A stretch of DNA of 64,000 bases from Shewanella cutis. GTDB lineage: Bacteria > Pseudomonadota > Gammaproteobacteria > Enterobacterales > Shewanellaceae. Below are positions 5,730 through 63,007 of this stretch, piece by piece. The stretch spans positions 1-64,000 of the forward strand of contig NZ_JACSDI010000015.1 in NCBI RefSeq assembly GCF_022410515.1, written 5' to 3'. Numbering within the stretch: the stretch's first letter is position 1; the number at the start of each line of letters is the position of its first letter. The position numbers were made by a program, and so were the translations under genes. The notes under the pieces are model-generated. The model did no database searches, was not told the origin of the DNA, and saw nothing but the letters and a program-made list of their open reading frames with translations.

Positions 5730-6017
5730 TTATGGACGAGATTTTCCGCGCAGTTTATCTCTTCTGTGATTTAACTGCATCCACATTGTCCAGCCAAATA
5801 GCACGCCACATGCGGGATAAATATACAGCGCGACTTTTAACGCCTGCCAAAATGGTATCTCTGAGGTGAAGTATTGGAACCCTGCCACTAAAAGTGAAGT
5901 CATACTCCCCCAATACAGTACGCCAATCACCAAGATAAAGTACCATTTACCCTTCGCGAGGAACTTCTCTAATAGAATGAGTGTATCGGACTGAATCTCT
6001 TGTTCTTGTATAGACAT
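5730..6017 (-). CDS. Small membrane protein, unknown function (2TM)
   Basis: A 95-aa protein starting MSIQEQEIQSD, with two hydrophobic segments (about 27-48 and 58-80) and a basic tail. A longer frame begins at 6101, but the extra 28 residues come partly from a mobile repeat (6047-6170). The ATG at 6017 has AGGAG 7 bases upstream (6025-6029 on the opposite strand), which settles the start. It is upstream of, and probably co-transcribed with, the membrane protein at 5377-5697. Function unknown. Confidence 0.65.
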   Translation of the reverse strand: MSIQEQEIQSDTLILLEKFLAKGKWYFILVIGVLYWGSMTSLLVAGFQYFTSEIPFWQALKVALYIYPACGVLFGWTMWMQLNHRRDKLRGKSRP

Positions 6018-6046
6018 CACCTGACTCCTGTTGGTTATTGTCATTA

Positions 6047-6170
6047 GGGCGTGTGACGTATCAGGGTTATTTTTGCAGCAGTTTGGCTGGCTTTTATGCA
6101 AAGCAAAGTCCGTGCAGTGTAGTTATTCTACTTAAACGGACGATAACGCGGCAGAAACGTCAACACGCCC
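6047..6170. mobile_element. MITE-like element, copy 1
   Basis: This 124-bp element has terminal inverted repeats GGGCGTGTGACGT and ACGTCAACACGCCC and is flanked on both sides by TA, as expected for a TA target. The interior has an imperfect hairpin (GTCCGT ... ACGGAC around GTAG-TTATT-CTAC). No transposase is encoded. A second, longer copy lies at 34257-34530 with nearly the same first 110 bases. It is inserted about 30 bases before the start of the small membrane protein gene at 6017. Confidence 0.75.
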
Positions 6171-6396
6171 TAATCAATATGCCAAATTTAACTAAGCCAA
6201 GCTATCCATCTTAGTAATGAGAACGAAAAACTACTCACTTGCTTAGGAGCGAACTGGCATGGGGATTTGAGGACTAAACAGGTACATAGCAACATACTCA
6301 GAAAGAAATCGTCGCGTTAGCAGAGCGACTCTGCAACTCATGAACCCACACCGCAGAAATATGCGCCGCAAAGCGCCACCCTTCATAAAACTCAGA

Positions 6397-6478
6397 TATA
6401 AAAAATCAGCCGCAACTTATGTTGCGGCTGACGATGGGGCGACGGCAAGACGGTGTAAATAAACTAAACCATCAGCAA
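6397..6478 (-). repeat. Repeated 3' untranslated element (copy 1)
   Basis: About 80 bases downstream of cytochrome c4, including its terminator and the adjoining sequence up to AAATAAACTAAAC, resemble 34803-34886 downstream of the RND pump gene. Identity is roughly three quarters by eye. Confidence 0.5.
6400..6431 (-). terminator. Cytochrome c4 terminator
   Basis: The perfect 11-bp stem TCAGCCGCAAC / GTTGCGGCTGA with a 4-nt loop is followed on the minus strand by six T residues. It lies 84 bases after the cytochrome stop codon. Confidence 0.85.
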
Positions 6479-8338: not shown

Positions 8339-8444
8339 AAAAAAAAGCCCCAGCAAACAAGTTGCTGGGGCGCCAGAATTTGGCTCGTCACTATAAGTGA
8401 AATAAAGGTCTGAAAGATAGAACATCTTAACCTCTGTACCCTAC
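8339..8444 (-). ncRNA. spf: Spot 42 small RNA
   Basis: The minus-strand RNA begins GTAGGGTACAGAGGTTAAGA and continues GATGTTCTATCTTTCAGACC, almost identical to the 5' half of E. coli Spot 42. It ends in GCCCCAGCAA / TTGCTGGGGC plus eight T residues. Spot 42 is an Hfq-dependent antisense regulator of carbon metabolism mRNAs in enterobacteria and vibrios. It lies between polA and engB and is transcribed in the polA direction, the same position as in E. coli. The middle differs from E. coli, as is normal between genera. Confidence 0.96.
8347..8371 (-). terminator. Spot 42 terminator
   Basis: The perfect 10-bp stem GCCCCAGCAA / TTGCTGGGGC with a 5-nt loop is followed on the minus strand by eight T residues (8339-8346). 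Confidence 0.93.
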
Positions 8445-8451
8445 GCAGAGA

Positions 8452-8480
8452 ATAATACGCTATTTATCTTTAATTGGAAA
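8452..8480 (-). promoter_or_regulatory. Spot 42 promoter
   Basis: TATTAT (8452-8457 on the complement) lies 7 bases before the conserved first G at 8444. A TTTCCA -35-like hexamer (8475-8480) is 17 bases further up. In E. coli spf is repressed by CRP-cAMP; I see only a poor half-site (AGTGA) further upstream and do not call it. Confidence 0.65.
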
Positions 8481-57305: not shown

Positions 57306-57548
57306 CTAATAGACTAATAATAAAGCACTTTTAAACATTACACATTCAAAGCTTGTCACCACCCAACGACGATATTGGCAGTTATAACAAGAGCGAACTT
57401 CATCATCGATCTGCTCATCCTCATCGTCAGGCACAAAGCGAGAACACAGTTGTGCCGTTCGCCTCGCCTCAGGATATTGCTGCAAACCTGCTCGAAAAAT
57501 CCAACGTTCGCTCTCGTATTCAAACTGCCGAAGAAGTTCTTGATTCAT
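57306..57548 (-). CDS. Small Cys-containing protein of the uptake operon
   Basis: An 80-aa protein, MNQELLRQFEYESERWIFRA onward, with a very acidic stretch (DDEDEQIDDE) and then CYNCQYRRW. CYNC with an upstream and a downstream single Cys could bind a metal. The ATG at 57548 has GAGGTG 3-4 bases upstream, and the IDDTD gene stops only 7 bases before, so it belongs to the same operon. A frame reaching 57608 is rejected because it overlaps the previous gene. Unknown family. Confidence 0.62.
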   Translation of the reverse strand: MNQELLRQFEYESERWIFRAGLQQYPEARRTAQLCSRFVPDDEDEQIDDEVRSCYNCQYRRWVVTSFECVMFKSALLLVY

Positions 57549-57555
57549 CTTCACC

Positions 57556-58293
57556 TCAATAGCTCTGTAGGACTTGTTTGCCGGCATTACGCCACTGCCC
57601 ACCGTCACGGCTAACTAGCAATACAAATTGATGCTCAAGATAGACGGCCTTCACTTTGCCTTTGAGTAGAACCCTTTCATCCGCCGCTAAAGGGGTTTTG
57701 TCTGTGCTCATTACCGCATCGAGGCCTGTCTGCTCGAGAATGTCAGCAACCGTTAATTCAAGGGATACTTCTTCAAGCTGACCGAGTTTGATTTGCCCCT
57801 TCACACGTCCATCATTGCCAGTTAAACGCAGCCCTAATCCCGCCAAAGCACCAATCACGCCTAGGCCAGTACCACCGTGCTCAGTGAGTTGGATCTGTAA
57901 CTGCTCGGCAAACTGATAAGCGGCCGCTTTGGTGATCACTTCACGCTTGGCTCTGAGCCCAAAGTCTATTAGCGCGTTCACATCATAGTCGGAATCGACA
58001 TCCAAAATTGCAATCCCAGGATCTGCCTTAGGTGCAGACTCCGCGACTAAATGCGCTACCGCCAGACGATGGATCTCCGCCTGCGATAACGGCGACTGCA
58101 ACGCAAAACACATGGCGCTATTGTGGGAGGTGTAAGGAATATCAGGATGCACAAATAATTGGTGCCGGGTGACAAAAGAAGCCTTGCCACCCGAGTTTTG
58201 CGCGAGCAAATGTGCAATTTCCTCGGCTATCTCGCCTGTGCCTTTAGTGCCAATGTCGTCGGTATCATCGATACAAATAAGCCAATTTTTCAT
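57556..58293 (-). CDS. IDDTD-motif protein of the uptake operon
   Basis: A 245-aa protein with WLICIDDTDDIGTKGTGEIA at its N-terminus. IDDTD-type starts also occur in archaeal TiaS, which activates agmatine on tRNA-Ile2, and related nucleotide-binding proteins, suggesting ATP or phosphate chemistry. The body includes EHGGTGLGVIGALAGLGLRL and an OB-like tail (VLLKGKVKAVYLEH). It has none of the zinc-ribbon part of TiaS. It is in the six-gene transporter operon, 15 bases after the S-like gene, so it may modify the imported substrate. Function unknown. Confidence 0.68.
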   Translation of the reverse strand: MKNWLICIDDTDDIGTKGTGEIAEEIAHLLAQNSGGKASFVTRHQLFVHPDIPYTSHNSAMCFALQSPLSQAEIHRLAVAHLVAESAPKADPGIAILDVDSDYDVNALIDFGLRAKREVITKAAAYQFAEQLQIQLTEHGGTGLGVIGALAGLGLRLTGNDGRVKGQIKLGQLEEVSLELTVADILEQTGLDAVMSTDKTPLAADERVLLKGKVKAVYLEHQFVLLVSRDGGQWRNAGKQVLQSY

Positions 58294-58308
58294 CGGTATT
58301 CCTAGCAG

Positions 58309-58851
58309 TTAAAACTTATCACGGTGAAGGAGATCATGAGCCTTAAGCCTATGCAGCACAGGCGGCACCAGTAATGCACCTAAGGTGGCAAAGAATCCGC
58401 CCTTAAGTACGCTTGCGCCCCATTGGATCAGCACAACATCGAAGGCCATACCAGCCAGCACATTAGAGAGTGCCACTTTAACCGCCCACGCCATACAGCC
58501 AACAATGCCTAAAATCATGCAGCGCCAGTGCAGGCTTAAGGTGAGAGGTAGCAACAAGGCCACCAGATCCATCGCGATAGCAGGTAAAATAAACTTCAAT
58601 AAAATCATCGGGCCGCCCTTGCCAACACCGAGCGCCATCGCGACTAGACCTGCAATTCCGCCACAGGCAATCATGCTGCCAAAACGCCCTAGTACGCCGT
58701 AGCAAATCAAATAGAAGAAACTCATCAAAAACATGCTATGGCCAGAAATCCCGAGCTTAAGCCTTAACATACTCGTCAATGCCACCAACAAAGTGGCGCA
58801 AAAACCAATAAACAGCGAGTCCTGCAAACTCAGAGGAAGTTTTTTCTTCAT
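58309..58851 (-). CDS. Small membrane protein, candidate ECF S component
   Basis: A 180-aa integral membrane protein with five to six hydrophobic segments (about 7-30, 37-57, 62-77, 84-110, 115-135, 145-165). This fits the size and topology of substrate-binding S subunits of ECF transporters, but I cannot match it to a named S family. The ATG at 58851 overlaps the EcfT-like gene's stop as ATGA; an upstream ATG at 58875 is in frame. It follows an EcfT-like permease and a fused EcfA pair, which is the main reason for the call. Confidence 0.6.
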   Translation of the reverse strand: MKKKLPLSLQDSLFIGFCATLLVALTSMLRLKLGISGHSMFLMSFFYLICYGVLGRFGSMIACGGIAGLVAMALGVGKGGPMILLKFILPAIAMDLVALLLPLTLSLHWRCMILGIVGCMAWAVKVALSNVLAGMAFDVVLIQWGASVLKGGFFATLGALLVPPVLHRLKAHDLLHRDKF

Positions 58852-59549
58852 TTTTTGTCTCTCGGTGAGTGCCAATGGGTGACACGCGTACTCTTGCCAA
58901 AGTGACGACTCTGGGCCGCAACCGCCATCTGGCGAGATAATTTAAGTAATTGGATTAATACAGGAAATAGCACGCAATACACTAGCTCAGGCCAATTTTT
59001 AGGATTTCGCAGCGCCTTAGGAGTAATACGCGCGCCGCGTAGACATTGGATCTGGTAAATCTCGCGCACTTCCTCCGCCATATAGGGCAGCAAACTCAAA
59101 GATGCGGCCACCACAAAGGCCCATTTGCTCGGCAAAAAGGCACTTAATACTTCGCCAATGCGCTCGGGTGCCGCTGTGATACACAACCACCAGCCAGGAA
59201 TAGTCGCCAACATAATCCGCCCGACCACCACAGCGCCTTGAGCTAAATGGCCAACACCATAGAGCAACAGATAAAGACTCAAAGTAATCGTCAGTTGAAT
59301 CACACCGAGTTTAACCACGCCCATGATACTACCGCGGCGCGCTAAGCCATGGAGCACTAAAAAGCCGTTAATCGCCGCTAGCGGCAACAATAAATCGACG
59401 GGCAATACAAAAGCGCAGGCTGAAAGTATGCACACGAAAAACAGCGACAACGCACACAACATGGTTTCTTGGCATTCTCGACTCCAACATCTGCGCACGA
59501 ATAGTCGCCATCGACTACAACTAACCCACATCGCGCTCATCCATCGCAA
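58848..59549 (-). CDS. EcfT-like permease
   Basis: A 233-aa protein with an N-terminal hydrophobic half and a C-terminal cytoplasmic part. The two Ala-Arg-Gly-type coupling motifs expected of EcfT are suggested by QCLRGARITPKAL (about 173-185) and AAQSRHFGKSTRV (about 213-225), which would dock on the ATPase. Overlap with the ATPase gene is 29 bases; later starts (59540 or 59531, overlapping the ATPase stop) are possible. It should be the energy-coupling membrane subunit. Confidence 0.75.
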   Translation of the reverse strand: MRWMSAMWVSCSRWRLFVRRCWSRECQETMLCALSLFFVCILSACAFVLPVDLLLPLAAINGFLVLHGLARRGSIMGVVKLGVIQLTITLSLYLLLYGVGHLAQGAVVVGRIMLATIPGWWLCITAAPERIGEVLSAFLPSKWAFVVAASLSLLPYMAEEVREIYQIQCLRGARITPKALRNPKNWPELVYCVLFPVLIQLLKLSRQMAVAAQSRHFGKSTRVTHWHSPRDKK

Positions 59550-60888
59550 AAATGGTTTCCGTCAGTAGACCGTTATATAAACTTAGTTGCCTAGACACCG
59601 CGCTATGCTCCACAACTCTATGACTGCTCATAAGAATCGCGCAGCCTTGAGCGCTGAGACGCTTAAGTAGATACCAAACTTTTCCATAGTAATGTTTATC
59701 CATACCCGCGAGCGGATCATCAAGTAGCAGCACCTTAGGCTGCAAACATGCTAACGAAGCTAAGGCGATAAGATGCTGTTGACCGTACGACAATTTATGG
59801 GGTGACTGCTCGGCAAGCATCATTAACCCAAGTTCTGCCAGCATTTGCTCGGCACGCTCTTTCGGAAGACCAAAACGATGGAGGCTAAACTGCATTTCAG
59901 TCAGTACACTGGTTTCAAAGAGTTGTCGGTTTGACCTTTGCAACAATAGCCCTAACTCGCCACCATAGACACCTAATTTAGGCTTACGACCTAATACTTT
60001 GAGCGGTATTCGCAGCTTTAAGCTAAGTATCCCCGCGATAGATTTTAATAAGCTGGTTTTACCTGAACCATTGGCCCCTACTAGCGCCACGATCTCGCCA
60101 GCATGTAACTGAAATCCCTGCGGACAACGAAACAATGGCTGGCAACCATCAAAACAAAAATCAAATGCTTCAGCGCTGACCAGCACTTTGCCCTGATGGC
60201 TAGCACTCCCCCTATATCGAGTCGGTTCATCATGCATTGGGGTATCTCTCACGGTATAAATCCCCGCAGATAATCGGCCTGCCTCTAATTGCCAATAATG
60301 ATTGATAATATCGGTAAAGGCCGCTGCATTATGCTCAACCAACACCAAGGCCATGCCTTCGGCAATAAGGTCGCGCAGAACGGTCAATAGTTCACTTACA
60401 CCATGGTCATCGAGCTGCGCCCATGGCTCATCAAGCAAGAGTAAGTGCGGCTCACAAACGAGTTGGGCGGCAATCATCAAACGGTATTTTTGACCAAGGG
60501 AAAGGGTACTCACCGGAGTATCAAGCCGTAAAAACAGCCCTACACGTCGCAGGGCTAGCTGTACTTTAGGCAACATATTCTCGGCGGGTATACCGAGATT
60601 CTCTAAGGCGAAGGCGACTTCGGCACCCACTGTTTGCCTAAGTAGCTGAGTTTGCGGGTCCTGCATCACTAAGCCAGTGATCAGCTCGGAGTGGCGCCAA
60701 ATTTCACCCTCATGCGGGCGATTCTGTACGCCCGCCAGTAGATTTAATAGGCTCGATTTACCCGAGCCAGTTGGCCCACTCACACAATGGCATTGGCCTG
60801 CGCCAATCGAGAACTTAAGCTCCTGTAAAACTGGGGCTAGCTGGCTGCCATAGTTAAAGCTGACACCGTCGAGCTCGAGTAATTTCAT
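59521..60888 (-). CDS. Fused double ECF-type ABC ATPase
   Basis: A 455-aa protein with two complete ABC ATPase domains in one chain, like fused EcfA1-EcfA2. The first has Walker A GPTGSGKS (38-45), signature LSLGQ and Walker B LLLLDEPWAQLD. The second has GANGSGKTS (about 270-278), LSYGQQ and VLLLDDPLAGMD. Both catalytic sets look intact, though the second Walker B has Asp in place of the usual Glu after the first Asp, which may weaken hydrolysis. The start is 1 base after the TonB receptor's stop, so the genes are one operon. Confidence 0.88.
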   Translation of the reverse strand: MKLLELDGVSFNYGSQLAPVLQELKFSIGAGQCHCVSGPTGSGKSSLLNLLAGVQNRPHEGEIWRHSELITGLVMQDPQTQLLRQTVGAEVAFALENLGIPAENMLPKVQLALRRVGLFLRLDTPVSTLSLGQKYRLMIAAQLVCEPHLLLLDEPWAQLDDHGVSELLTVLRDLIAEGMALVLVEHNAAAFTDIINHYWQLEAGRLSAGIYTVRDTPMHDEPTRYRGSASHQGKVLVSAEAFDFCFDGCQPLFRCPQGFQLHAGEIVALVGANGSGKTSLLKSIAGILSLKLRIPLKVLGRKPKLGVYGGELGLLLQRSNRQLFETSVLTEMQFSLHRFGLPKERAEQMLAELGLMMLAEQSPHKLSYGQQHLIALASLACLQPKVLLLDDPLAGMDKHYYGKVWYLLKRLSAQGCAILMSSHRVVEHSAVSRQLSLYNGLLTETIFAMDERDVG

Positions 60889-60889
60889 C

Positions 60890-63007
60890 TTAAATCTGCC
60901 AGTTCACACCCACGAAGAACTGACGGCCAGCCTGAGGCAGGGCTTCACTCTGGTAGTAGTTCTCATCCAATAGGTTAGTGGCGCGCAGATACACTTCTAA
61001 CTTATCGGCGATCAGCGGCTGCACTAAGTTGATATCCACTAAGGTGTAGTTATCCAGCGATTGTTTTTGGTACTGGCTCTGCCCGTTTACCTTCACTTGT
61101 GTTGCATACACCTGATCGAGGATACGCTCTACATTCAGGTGGATTTGCGTCTCGAAGGGGAACTGGTAGCTCATTTGCCAACGTAACTGATGACGAGGAC
61201 GGTATTGCAGCGTATCTAAGGTATCGTCGCCTTCCATTTCTTTTGAATCTAAGAAACTGTAGGAGAAGCTCAGATCTAAATGCTCAATCGCATGGTTATT
61301 AATTTGGAAATCAATCCCTTTGAACTCATAGCGCCCCATATTTTGGTAGAATCCATTCGTATCTTTGGCGATATAGTTCTTCGCATCCGTGTAATAACCG
61401 TAGAGCGAGAAGTCGGTGCTAGCCGGTATGTTTTGCTCAAGACCTAGCTCGACATGCTTAGATTCTTCCGCTTCTAACTCACTATTACCCGATGATTGCG
61501 AGTACAAGTTCACCATAGAGGGGAAACGCACCTTACGAGCAACACTCAGGCTCAAACGTGAATCAGGTACCACCTGCCAGTAGCTAGAAGCCATTGCCGA
61601 GTAGTTATCATCCGTACTATCTGAGGTATCGAGAGAATGGAAGGCGCCGCCGAAGGTAAAGCCATAGTTATGCTCAGATTGATACTGATATTCGGCCGCT
61701 GCGGTATATAGCCACGCAGAATCGTTTAGATTTTCAGCGCCGCCGGAACCGCCGCCACTACCAGTGCCACCGCCAGAACCAGTTCCACTACCAGTTCCAC
61801 CACCACTACCAGAGCCACCGCCAGAACCTGTTCCACTACCGCTGCCTGAGCCGCTGCCAGACCCAGTGCCAGAGTTATTCCCGCTACCACTGCCTGTATT
61901 GCTTGAGTAAGTATCTACGACTGACTTCCAACTCTGTTCCTCTGCAATCACAGAGGTGGTTAACAGCCCGGCCTTATGAAAATCAGTGATCAGCTGTAAA
62001 TTGACCCCTTGAACCACGGAGCGACCGTCTTGAGTTTGCGTTAATGCCAAATAAGTTTCATCGGCATAAGCGGCTTCTAAGGTATCGCTTTGATTGTGAT
62101 AGCCAAAACCACGCAGGGTAAAAGTATCGTCGAACTGATGGGCTAAGCCGAGCTGGAAGGTATGTGAATCGTAATCGTCGGTGCGCTCATACTTAAGTTT
62201 GCCACTGCCAGTTCCATCACGGGCAGGTTTGCCCCATTCGCCATTACGCAGTGCCGCGTTGGCAATCAGTTGGGTCTTATCCGATAACCAGTAACTACCT
62301 TGGGCATAAACGTTGGTGACTTCTTTATCTGAGTTGGCACGCAGTTCACCGTCTTGATATTTGGTCGGCTCGAAATCGTTCGACATCGGGAAACCATCGG
62401 TCTGCTGGCGACTAACACTCACCAATCCCTGCCAATCCTCACCCGAGCCAGCGGCGCTGATATCACCATTAAAGGTATTGTCTTTACCCGCTTCTAAACG
62501 GCCTGACAAAGCCGGCGCACTTCTGCCTTGTTTGGTAATGATATTGATCACCCCACCAGCACCGCTTGGACCATAGAGAACCGATGTTGGTCCAACTGAC
62601 ACTTCTACCGAGGCAATTTGACTGGTGGGGATCACGCTCGGGTCGAACTGACCATCATCGGCACTGCTCATGGGCACGCCGTTGACCAATAAAGTGACAT
62701 GGCGAGTCTTAAAACCACGAATATCGACTCTAGGGGTGCCATCTCCGCCAACACGGATATAGACTCCGGGCACATTTTTCAGCACTTGGTCTAAGGTCTG
62801 TGCACCCAAGGCGCGGATTTCGGCCTCATCTATGCTCCAATGGGTGGTCGCCAATTGTTCCGCGTCAGCGCCTTCGCCGTGGACGACAATCACTTCATTC
62901 ACATTTAGCAGGGGATCACGAGTGATTTCATCGGCATGGCTAGTAAAAATGAGTCCAATCGCAAATGCCAAGGAAGACACTCTAACGGCGGTATTTCTGG
63001 TAATCAT
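60890..63007 (-). CDS. TonB-dependent outer-membrane receptor with Gly/Ser tract
   Basis: A 705-aa receptor. The signal peptide (about 1-25) is followed by a TonB-box-like NEVIVVHGEG, a plug domain (TLDQVLKNVPGVYIRVGGDG, YGPSGAGGVINIITKQG) and a 22-strand-type barrel ending FVGVNWQI. Between about residues 369 and 424 lies a Gly/Ser-rich stretch, made of GSGSG and GTGSGGG units, in what should be an extracellular loop. Receptors of this class import siderophores, cobalamin, haem or other scarce compounds. The substrate is unknown; the linked ECF genes point to a vitamin- or metal-like compound rather than a siderophore. Confidence 0.9.
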   Translation of the reverse strand: MITRNTAVRVSSLAFAIGLIFTSHADEITRDPLLNVNEVIVVHGEGADAEQLATTHWSIDEAEIRALGAQTLDQVLKNVPGVYIRVGGDGTPRVDIRGFKTRHVTLLVNGVPMSSADDGQFDPSVIPTSQIASVEVSVGPTSVLYGPSGAGGVINIITKQGRSAPALSGRLEAGKDNTFNGDISAAGSGEDWQGLVSVSRQQTDGFPMSNDFEPTKYQDGELRANSDKEVTNVYAQGSYWLSDKTQLIANAALRNGEWGKPARDGTGSGKLKYERTDDYDSHTFQLGLAHQFDDTFTLRGFGYHNQSDTLEAAYADETYLALTQTQDGRSVVQGVNLQLITDFHKAGLLTTSVIAEEQSWKSVVDTYSSNTGSGSGNNSGTGSGSGSGSGSGTGSGGGSGSGGGTGSGTGSGGGTGSGGGSGGAENLNDSAWLYTAAAEYQYQSEHNYGFTFGGAFHSLDTSDSTDDNYSAMASSYWQVVPDSRLSLSVARKVRFPSMVNLYSQSSGNSELEAEESKHVELGLEQNIPASTDFSLYGYYTDAKNYIAKDTNGFYQNMGRYEFKGIDFQINNHAIEHLDLSFSYSFLDSKEMEGDDTLDTLQYRPRHQLRWQMSYQFPFETQIHLNVERILDQVYATQVKVNGQSQYQKQSLDNYTLVDINLVQPLIADKLEVYLRATNLLDENYYQSEALPQAGRQFFVGVNWQI
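61741..61900 (-). repeat. In-frame Gly/Ser repeat tract in the receptor gene
   Basis: About 160 bases of imperfect 6- to 18-base repeats encode alternating Gly-Ser, Gly-Thr and Gly-Gly. All units are multiples of three, so slippage would change loop length without breaking the frame. Confidence 0.8.

Follow-up and report, generated by a model that had tools for sequence, protein, structure and literature searches.

What does a gammaproteobacterium import when an outer-membrane receptor, an energy-coupling factor (ECF) module and a kinase-like protein are encoded together? This question is raised by a locus of Shewanella cutis at positions 57306–63007 of a 64,000-nucleotide stretch of contig NZ_JACSDI010000015.1, which was analysed as a whole and is called the window below. 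Six genes lie there head to tail on the minus strand, encoding in order a TonB-dependent receptor, a fused double ECF ATPase (EcfAA), the coupling protein EcfT, a small membrane protein resembling an ECF substrate-binding (S) component, a protein with a DDTD motif (the IDDTD protein) and a small cysteine-containing protein (the CYNC protein). An earlier note, made from the sequence alone, had described the locus as a six-gene receptor plus ECF-type operon of unknown substrate, and the operon itself is borne out by the gene order, the family matches and its recurrence across genomes. As for the substrate, a link to tungsten or molybdenum is quite probable from the genes that accompany relatives of the operon, and we propose, with a probability of roughly 0.6, that the operon is an acquisition route for tungsten, or for tungsten and molybdenum, over both membranes.

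The IDDTD protein (57556–58293, minus strand, 245 residues) served as the anchor for the comparison across genomes. Its AlphaFold2 (AF2) model, with a predicted local distance difference test (pLDDT) score of 93.1, matches the archaeal TiaS structure 4rvz with Z 22.4 and 1.8 Å over 152 residues, and a profile search of the PDB (E up to 1) returned four sequences, all of them TiaS (3u02 among them), at 8e-10 to 1e-8. The profile match spans positions 2–154 and ends there, thus covering the kinase domain (TCKD), and the Pfam model TiaS_TCKD scored 22.4 bits, below its cut-off of 27; the domain is assigned here from fold and profile together. Residues D9, D10, T11, D12, G18, T19 and G20 are invariant in 56 IDDTD sequences, and T19 is aligned with T18 of TiaS, which we take to be the autophosphorylated threonine of that enzyme. 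The best NCBIfam match of the domain was methanogenesis marker protein 11 (TIGR03280; 1.2e-9, 37.7 bits), which left the first 132 profile positions unmatched and did not reach the cut-off of 255.8, while the full-length TiaS model gave 26.6 bits against a cut-off of 600. Because both scores are far below the cut-offs, the IDDTD protein is a relative of TiaS and of marker 11 and a member of neither. The matches of its model to HPPK and ribosomal S6 were set aside as reflecting a common fold only. A second, interrupted IDDTD copy, split into two open reading frames (ORFs), was observed near the full-length copy in a Nitrobacter locus (L087, 6656–7428).

Relatives of the IDDTD gene were found well beyond the genus. 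The scan of genome contigs gave at least 588 pattern matches and at least 497 relatives. The 80 best relatives were retained; by record title, these belong to Bacteroidota, Gamma-, Alpha- and Betaproteobacteria, Cyanobacteria, Chloroflexi, Acidobacteria and Actinomycetes. Together with L125 and L126 they make up the 82 loci (L045–L126) counted below. Near-identical maps were all retained (L060/L085/L088, L092/L095/L104, L103/L105 and L119/L123/L124), L113 seems to duplicate the record of L027, a distant locus outside the 82, and low neighbour counts in L057, L090, L091, L102, L125 and L126 are due to loci shorter than 6 kb. One kept locus (L047) is titled as a Klebsiella pneumoniae metagenome-assembled genome and carries the cluster; the title is suspected to be misassigned. 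Among viral contigs, 82 pattern matches included no relatives, and the plasmid search gave one partial match covering 39% of the query. The gene is sparse in broader samples, with carriers making up 4 of 369 Gammaproteobacteria and 4 of 398 Pseudomonadota (own genome included in each).

The most constant companion of the IDDTD gene is a membrane protein of about 191 residues, recovered by clustering the ORFs of the 82 loci, with all 73 members on the same strand as IDDTD at a median offset of +610 bases. A profile of this distant family, searched against 18 S proteins of the genus, found the S protein of the window at E 2.6e-7; the reverse profile search against 4035 ORFs gave 2.9e-7 for its best distant match, and the profile–profile probability was 92.6%. 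As judged from these profiles, the distant protein belongs to the same family as the S protein of the window. This kinship rests on profiles because a single-sequence tblastn search with the window S protein against the 82 loci found only L125. With overlapping ORFs removed, S is the next gene downstream of IDDTD on the same strand in 68 of the 82 loci and lies within five genes in 71. A receptor gene lies within five genes in 59 loci, and both partners are present in 56. No receptor was found in the nine loci of phyla taken as single-membrane, six of which keep S, compared with 59 of the 73 others, as an outer-membrane step predicts; these nine loci, like the 21 Bacteroidota below, were assigned by record titles and by biology that we take as known.

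The link to tungsten and molybdenum comes from the other neighbours. Within five genes of IDDTD, the labelled genes were ModE (26 loci), HTH-PBP_like (12), binding protein (11), aldehyde ferredoxin oxidoreductase (AOR; 10), PpnP (10), MoeA (8), ThiF (7), ABC (6), TupB-like (5), MoaD (5), MoaC (3) and MoaA (2), and at least one tungsten- or molybdenum-labelled gene was present in 42 of the 82 loci (39 if the binding-protein label is dropped). Such genes made up a fraction of 0.116, 0.119 and 0.114 of all genes in the three 2-kb intervals nearest to IDDTD, and 0.049 at 6–8 kb. Each label was checked with hidden Markov models on one representative. Matches were obtained for PBP_like (1e-57), AFOR_C (5.8e-95), Ppnp (3e-34), MoeA_N (1.3e-41), ThiF (2.8e-35), MoaC (2.6e-52) and ABC_tran (2e-31), together with SBP_bac_11 (7e-9), ThiS for the MoaD label (7e-8) and BPD_transp_1 for the TupB label (1.3e-9). 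The ModE representative matched ModE_repress at 1.7e-22 and 79.4 bits, below the cut-off of 98.5, the MoaA representative matched Radical_SAM at 2e-32 and Mob_synth_C at 5e-9, just below the cut-off, and the binding-protein representative matched TupA only at 6.6e-4. YqeC (PF19842), presumably a molybdenum-hydroxylase maturation gene, was found in two loci (L025 and L045).

Similar genes lie near the operon in the genus. The divergent neighbour of the receptor gene matches, in its part within the window, isochorismate synthase MenF (5e-16). Past the window end, the own genome encodes a histidine kinase, a sigma-54 type regulator, a TupA-like protein (9.6e-67, 225 bits against a cut-off of 400) whose gene begins 8 kb away from the start of the receptor, a permease, an ATP-binding cassette (ABC) ATPase, a MobA-type protein, MoaA and a MobB-MoeA protein (1076 bits). 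The operon adjoins menF, and the sigma-54 regulator and TupABC-like genes lie beyond it. In another genome of the genus (G028), an HTH_17-PBP_like gene (PF12727, 1.4e-42) is located two genes upstream of the operon, with a sigma-54 type regulator just upstream. In L127, a VUT/YhhQ-like membrane protein gene (5777–6436, read by eye) separates menF from the genes for the histidine kinase and the sigma-54 regulator.

The association extends to whole genomes. In the genomes of the first 40 of the 80 genome-contig loci, which were also used for MoaA and CbiQ, AOR (PF02730), a family of tungsten enzymes, was present in 33, namely in all 21 Bacteroidota and in 12 of 19 others. In the background draw of 148 Bacteroidota, which included one carrier, AOR occurred in 2 of the 147 others (Fisher test, 9e-25) and the IDDTD gene in none of them; AOR can therefore exist without this system. 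In Gammaproteobacteria, AOR occurred in 51 of 369 genomes, namely in all three carriers outside the genus compared with 48 of 365 non-carriers (p 0.0025); counting the own genome as well, 3 of 4 carriers have it (p 0.009). The system goes with AOR and is not solely for AOR.

The remaining genes show how such a cargo might be moved. At the outer membrane, the receptor (60890–63007, minus strand, 705 residues) carries a Plug domain (PF07715, 4e-24). When the receptor of a distant IDDTD locus (L027) was searched against the own genome, the operon receptor was the best of 21 match rows at 5e-51, followed by the next receptor at 3e-13. The window receptor scored 140.9 bits with the vitamin B12 receptor model BtuB (TIGR01779), whose cut-off is 599.7. 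A Gly/Ser/Thr/Asn repeat insertion (window 61730–61900, near residue 367, where it consists of Gly/Ser repeats) was observed in 15 of 16 aligned receptors (L028–L043, window included) and exceeds 200 residues in L035; with lengths so different between sequences, it reads as a hypervariable loop.

At the inner membrane, EcfAA (59521–60888, minus strand, 455 residues) matches ABC_tran (PF00005, 5e-44) in two stretches, and in 18 of 18 aligned sequences both halves carry the Walker A Gly-Lys and the LSxGQ signature, corresponding to the two ATPase units of group I ECF importers. The catalytic Glu is invariant in the first half (E154) and replaced by Asp (D391) in the second-half Walker B in all 18, suggesting that the two ATPase sites are probably unequal. 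EcfT (58848–59549, minus strand, 233 residues from a TTG start) belongs to the CbiQ family (PF02361, 1.1e-10; 41.9 bits against a cut-off of 25), as do dedicated EcfT proteins of group I, and its R171-G172 and R215 are invariant in 18 sequences.

The S protein (58309–58851, minus strand, 180 residues) matched nothing in Pfam even at a limit of E 1, belongs to no named NCBIfam family, and is not a CbiM or NikM by sequence; its profile found no sequence relative in the PDB, where the weak matches (E 0.11 and up) were antibodies. Its AF2 model (pLDDT 81.3) is that of a six-helix ECF S-component. Although none of 233 Foldseek matches was below 0.001, the five best were ECF S-components (E 0.024–0.58), and the top 16 rows of the VIA comparison were all S-components with Z 13.9–10.8, where values below about 13 may reflect a common arrangement in helical bundles. 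The next rows were ammonia/methane monooxygenase subunits (10.6–10.3), a transition-metal S-component (10.3) and Lnt (8.6); the NikM-type entry 4m5b shares the fold at Z 10.3. The S-component fold is assigned because all top rows agree and EcfT is the genomic partner. The S, T and A genes are co-encoded, and their products may form one working complex.

The genes are closely packed, with gaps of +1 base between receptor and EcfAA, −29 between EcfAA and EcfT (TTG start at 59549), −4 between EcfT and S and +15 between S and IDDTD. The last gap depends on the start of the CYNC gene, being +7 from the ATG at 57548 and −53 from the GTG at 57608. The ATG is probably the start, since it lies close to where most of the 16 aligned orthologues start, so that the previously given gap range of −29 to +15 is reasonable; the longer frame is also present in one close relative (L028). 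Within the alignment of 16 sequences, the CYNC protein (57306–57548, minus strand) has a DDEDE stretch and four invariant cysteines (C55, C74, C77 and C89, numbered from the GTG at 57608), which suggest that it may bind a metal ion. No meaningful family match was found for it. By title, the entry 3au7 indicates that TiaS has a ZRD. One guess, by analogy, is that the CYNC protein supplies this part in trans, and we assume that the ZRD is a zinc ribbon. The gene past CYNC encodes an HD domain (HD-GYP-like).

How widely is the complete set distributed? The IDDTD gene was found in 21 of 60 related genomes (own included), all 21 among the 36 genomes of the genus, and in every one of them it is accompanied by homologues of S, EcfT and CYNC (the CYNC match in L019 reaching no better than E 0.001). 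Receptor, EcfAA, EcfT, S and IDDTD were all present in 15 of the 17 larger genus loci cut out, and all six genes in a genome of another genus of the same family (L141). The other two of the 17, L033 and L038, retain ECF, S, IDDTD and CYNC and gave no receptor match in the 14 kb taken, tblastn included. In L042 the receptor is present as two ORFs on the other strand. In a genome of the genus represented by L144 (4708–6656), the receptor lies opposite in strand to the ECF genes as two overlapping ORFs and is probably inverted and broken.

Outside this family the core is smaller. An EcfT match was obtained in just one of the 82 loci, L125, which comes from the family of the source organism, and EcfT and EcfAA appear from this distribution to be an addition by this bacterial family. 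The suggestion of a complete uptake route is upheld in that the receptor shares an operon with a full ECF module and an S-like protein, and falls short in that ECF coupling lies outside the widespread core. The cysteine protein, also counted among the operon partners, is likewise an extra rather than part of that core, found in the genus, in L141 and in G712 (L126/L142), a genome from a different gammaproteobacterial family. G712 has the order S, receptor, IDDTD and CYNC, its CYNC homologue shares the four Cys and the DDEDE stretch, and no ECF gene was recognised nearby; this homologue counts in favour of the proposed route. None was found by tblastn in the other 80 loci.

Several observations weigh against tungsten or molybdenum acquisition by this operon. 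A CbiQ/EcfT match was absent from 29 of the 40 distant carrier genomes, so the S protein there works alone or with another partner. Forty of the 82 loci have no tungsten- or molybdenum-labelled gene within five genes, and the 80 distant loci, near-duplicates included, were taken from the 497 relatives by score and do not form a random sample. The PF02730 search found no AOR in the own genome, and within the genus 7 of the 21 carriers have AOR, as does 1 of the 15 non-carriers (p 0.064). PF02730 also matches the control E. coli, and AOR is not proof of tungsten; anaerobic lifestyle and kinship, which the statistics ignore, could explain part of the co-occurrence. The E. coli match and the TupA-like score below its cut-off slightly weaken two of the supports. 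The own genome moreover has the TupABC-like importer, which probably provides bare tungstate with a route of its own. Finally, consensus scans for Fur and ModE in the region upstream of the receptor at 16 loci, compared with 100 shuffles, gave a best ModE-like score in the window that was equalled by 87 shuffles; the corresponding score in one relative was equalled by 9.

These points leave room for other cargoes. The receptor might take up a siderophore or haem, with the tungsten and molybdenum genes nearby reflecting general metal metabolism. The best NCBIfam score of the receptor is indeed with the TonB-siderophore receptor model (TIGR01783), but the 146.5 bits obtained are below the curated cut-off of 223.5. 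Likewise, three relatives have an upstream Fur-like score of 14/19 equalled by only 2–4 shuffles (one further relative, 13/19, equalled by 7), whereas the best Fur-like site of the window is 12/19, equalled by 54, and the 14/19 sites were not assigned to the operon because they lie about 300 bases upstream, towards menF. By locus numbering, menF of S. oneidensis is presumably near SO_4713, and the receptor gene SO_4743 of that species is probably a different locus. SO_4743 would otherwise favour iron, as it is reported to be an iron-regulated receptor; SO4718 is named as a sigma-54 regulator for tungstate transport. With the AOR enrichment in carriers also speaking against it, uptake of a siderophore or haem is considered distinctly unlikely. 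An ECF system for another scarce compound, such as cobalt, nickel or an unknown vitamin, which merely lies near such genes, is held to be just as improbable; the CbiQ-family EcfT, the S protein without a named family and the 40 loci lacking labelled neighbours would fit it, while the same gene associations in several phyla and the genome-level co-occurrence with AOR argue against it.

Two further explanations start from the IDDTD protein. The system might salvage a cofactor, importing a molybdopterin or tungstopterin compound or a fragment that is re-phosphorylated by the kinase. Known S-components carry vitamins, folate among them, the IDDTD protein has a kinase fold weakly similar to the pterin kinase HPPK (Z < 8), and 10 of 82 loci have a PpnP-family gene in the vicinity. 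However, the resemblance to HPPK goes no further than a common fold, and carriers probably make pterin themselves, because MoaA (PF06463) was matched in 39 of 40 carrier genomes (37 above the cut-off) and some clusters hold MoeA, MoaA or MoaC; salvage is therefore regarded as unlikely, somewhat less so than the two cargoes above. The least credible explanation is that the IDDTD protein is a tRNA-modifying TiaS unrelated to the transporter. It has a clear TiaS kinase domain, but the profile match stops at the end of that domain, the full-length model score is a small fraction of its cut-off, and S stands next to IDDTD in most loci.

Tungsten, or tungsten and molybdenum, thus remains the preferred cargo, and the earlier description of the substrate as unknown is narrowed by the neighbours of the IDDTD, S and receptor relatives and by the AOR enrichment. 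In the proposed mechanism, the receptor would take a scarce form of the metal, probably a complex with an organic ligand, across the outer membrane by TonB energy, and the S protein would bind the cargo at the inner membrane. In this lineage EcfT and the fused EcfAA would drive it inward, where the cytosolic IDDTD protein would spend ATP at its TiaS-type kinase site on the imported ligand, trapping the ligand or freeing the metal for the molybdopterin pathway; the CYNC protein may take part, possibly as a zinc-binding helper. The earlier suggestion that the IDDTD protein could act on the cargo is supported as a possibility by the kinase domain seen in both profile and predicted structure. More tentatively, tungsten may be imported as an organic complex, with its own or a foreign tungstophore, whose ligand is processed inside by the TiaS-derived kinase.

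Some side observations on the locus and its relatives were also recorded. In eight Bacteroidota clusters (L056, L058, L063, L074, L083, L092, L095 and L104), a lipoprotein gene directly precedes the receptor gene, many of these clusters have a PpnP-family gene, and many of the genomes have a short MoaA of about 266 residues that matches PF06463 in part. In L061, L067, L081, L093, L097 and L114 (Chloroflexi and one Actinomycete), IDDTD is immediately preceded by a small lipoprotein-like gene; a reading of these genes by eye as molybdopterin-binding was dropped, as no significant Pfam match was found in the four of six scanned. The sole Rfam match at gathering score in the window is Spot 42 RNA (8339–8454), and in nine distant loci Rfam matched a SAM riboswitch and one tRNA and nothing else.

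If the proposal is true, it would add an outer-membrane route for tungsten, use of the TiaS kinase fold outside RNA, and an explanation of how tungsten-using Gram-negative bacteria gather a trace metal. It would also suggest that a biological ligand for tungsten could be sought, assign a role to an S-component family that has no name, and offer a starting point for the related methanogenesis marker 11, for which the model type is hypothetical equivalog. The complete version lies in a genus with many finished genomes and is therefore directly testable. Our literature search, from whose coverage subscription papers were mostly and preprints wholly excluded, found no TonB-dependent or other outer-membrane receptor and no ECF system for tungsten or molybdenum. 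The accessible part of a tungsten review presents import as ABC transport of oxyanions and does not mention TonB or the outer membrane (PMC10221389). As far as the available text of other papers goes, an ECF system is described for cobalt (PMC13119186), ModABC and TupBCA are used (PMC13396061), and a TonB receptor is mentioned for an iron siderophore (PMC11734730).

The operon can be compared with known systems. Like TonB-dependent siderophore and B12 receptors, the window receptor has a plug and a barrel; unlike them, it falls under the curated cut-offs, and no other receptor of its own genome is as close to that of a distant IDDTD locus. The inner-membrane part resembles the group I ECF importers (CbiMNQO, NikMNQO and BioMNY) in its dedicated CbiQ-family EcfT, two ATPase halves, S-component-like fold and single operon, and differs from them in that S has no named Pfam or NCBIfam family, the ATPases are fused, and a TonB-dependent receptor and a TiaS-like kinase are co-encoded. 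With TupABC, ModABC and WtpABC it shares the link to the same tungsten and molybdenum genes, a TupABC-like set lying close by in its own genome; those systems, however, consist of a binding protein and a permease, whereas the operon has an S-component and EcfT, and none of its six genes encodes a substrate-binding protein. Methanogenesis marker protein 11 is the closest NCBIfam relative of the IDDTD protein, which nevertheless lacks the initial part of that model and scores below its cut-off. As for TiaS, the tRNA(Ile2) agmatinylcytidine synthetase, the IDDTD protein shares its kinase domain fold, DDTD motif and aligned threonine but matches the kinase domain alone with confidence, and unlike the archaeal enzyme it is bacterial and linked to transport genes.

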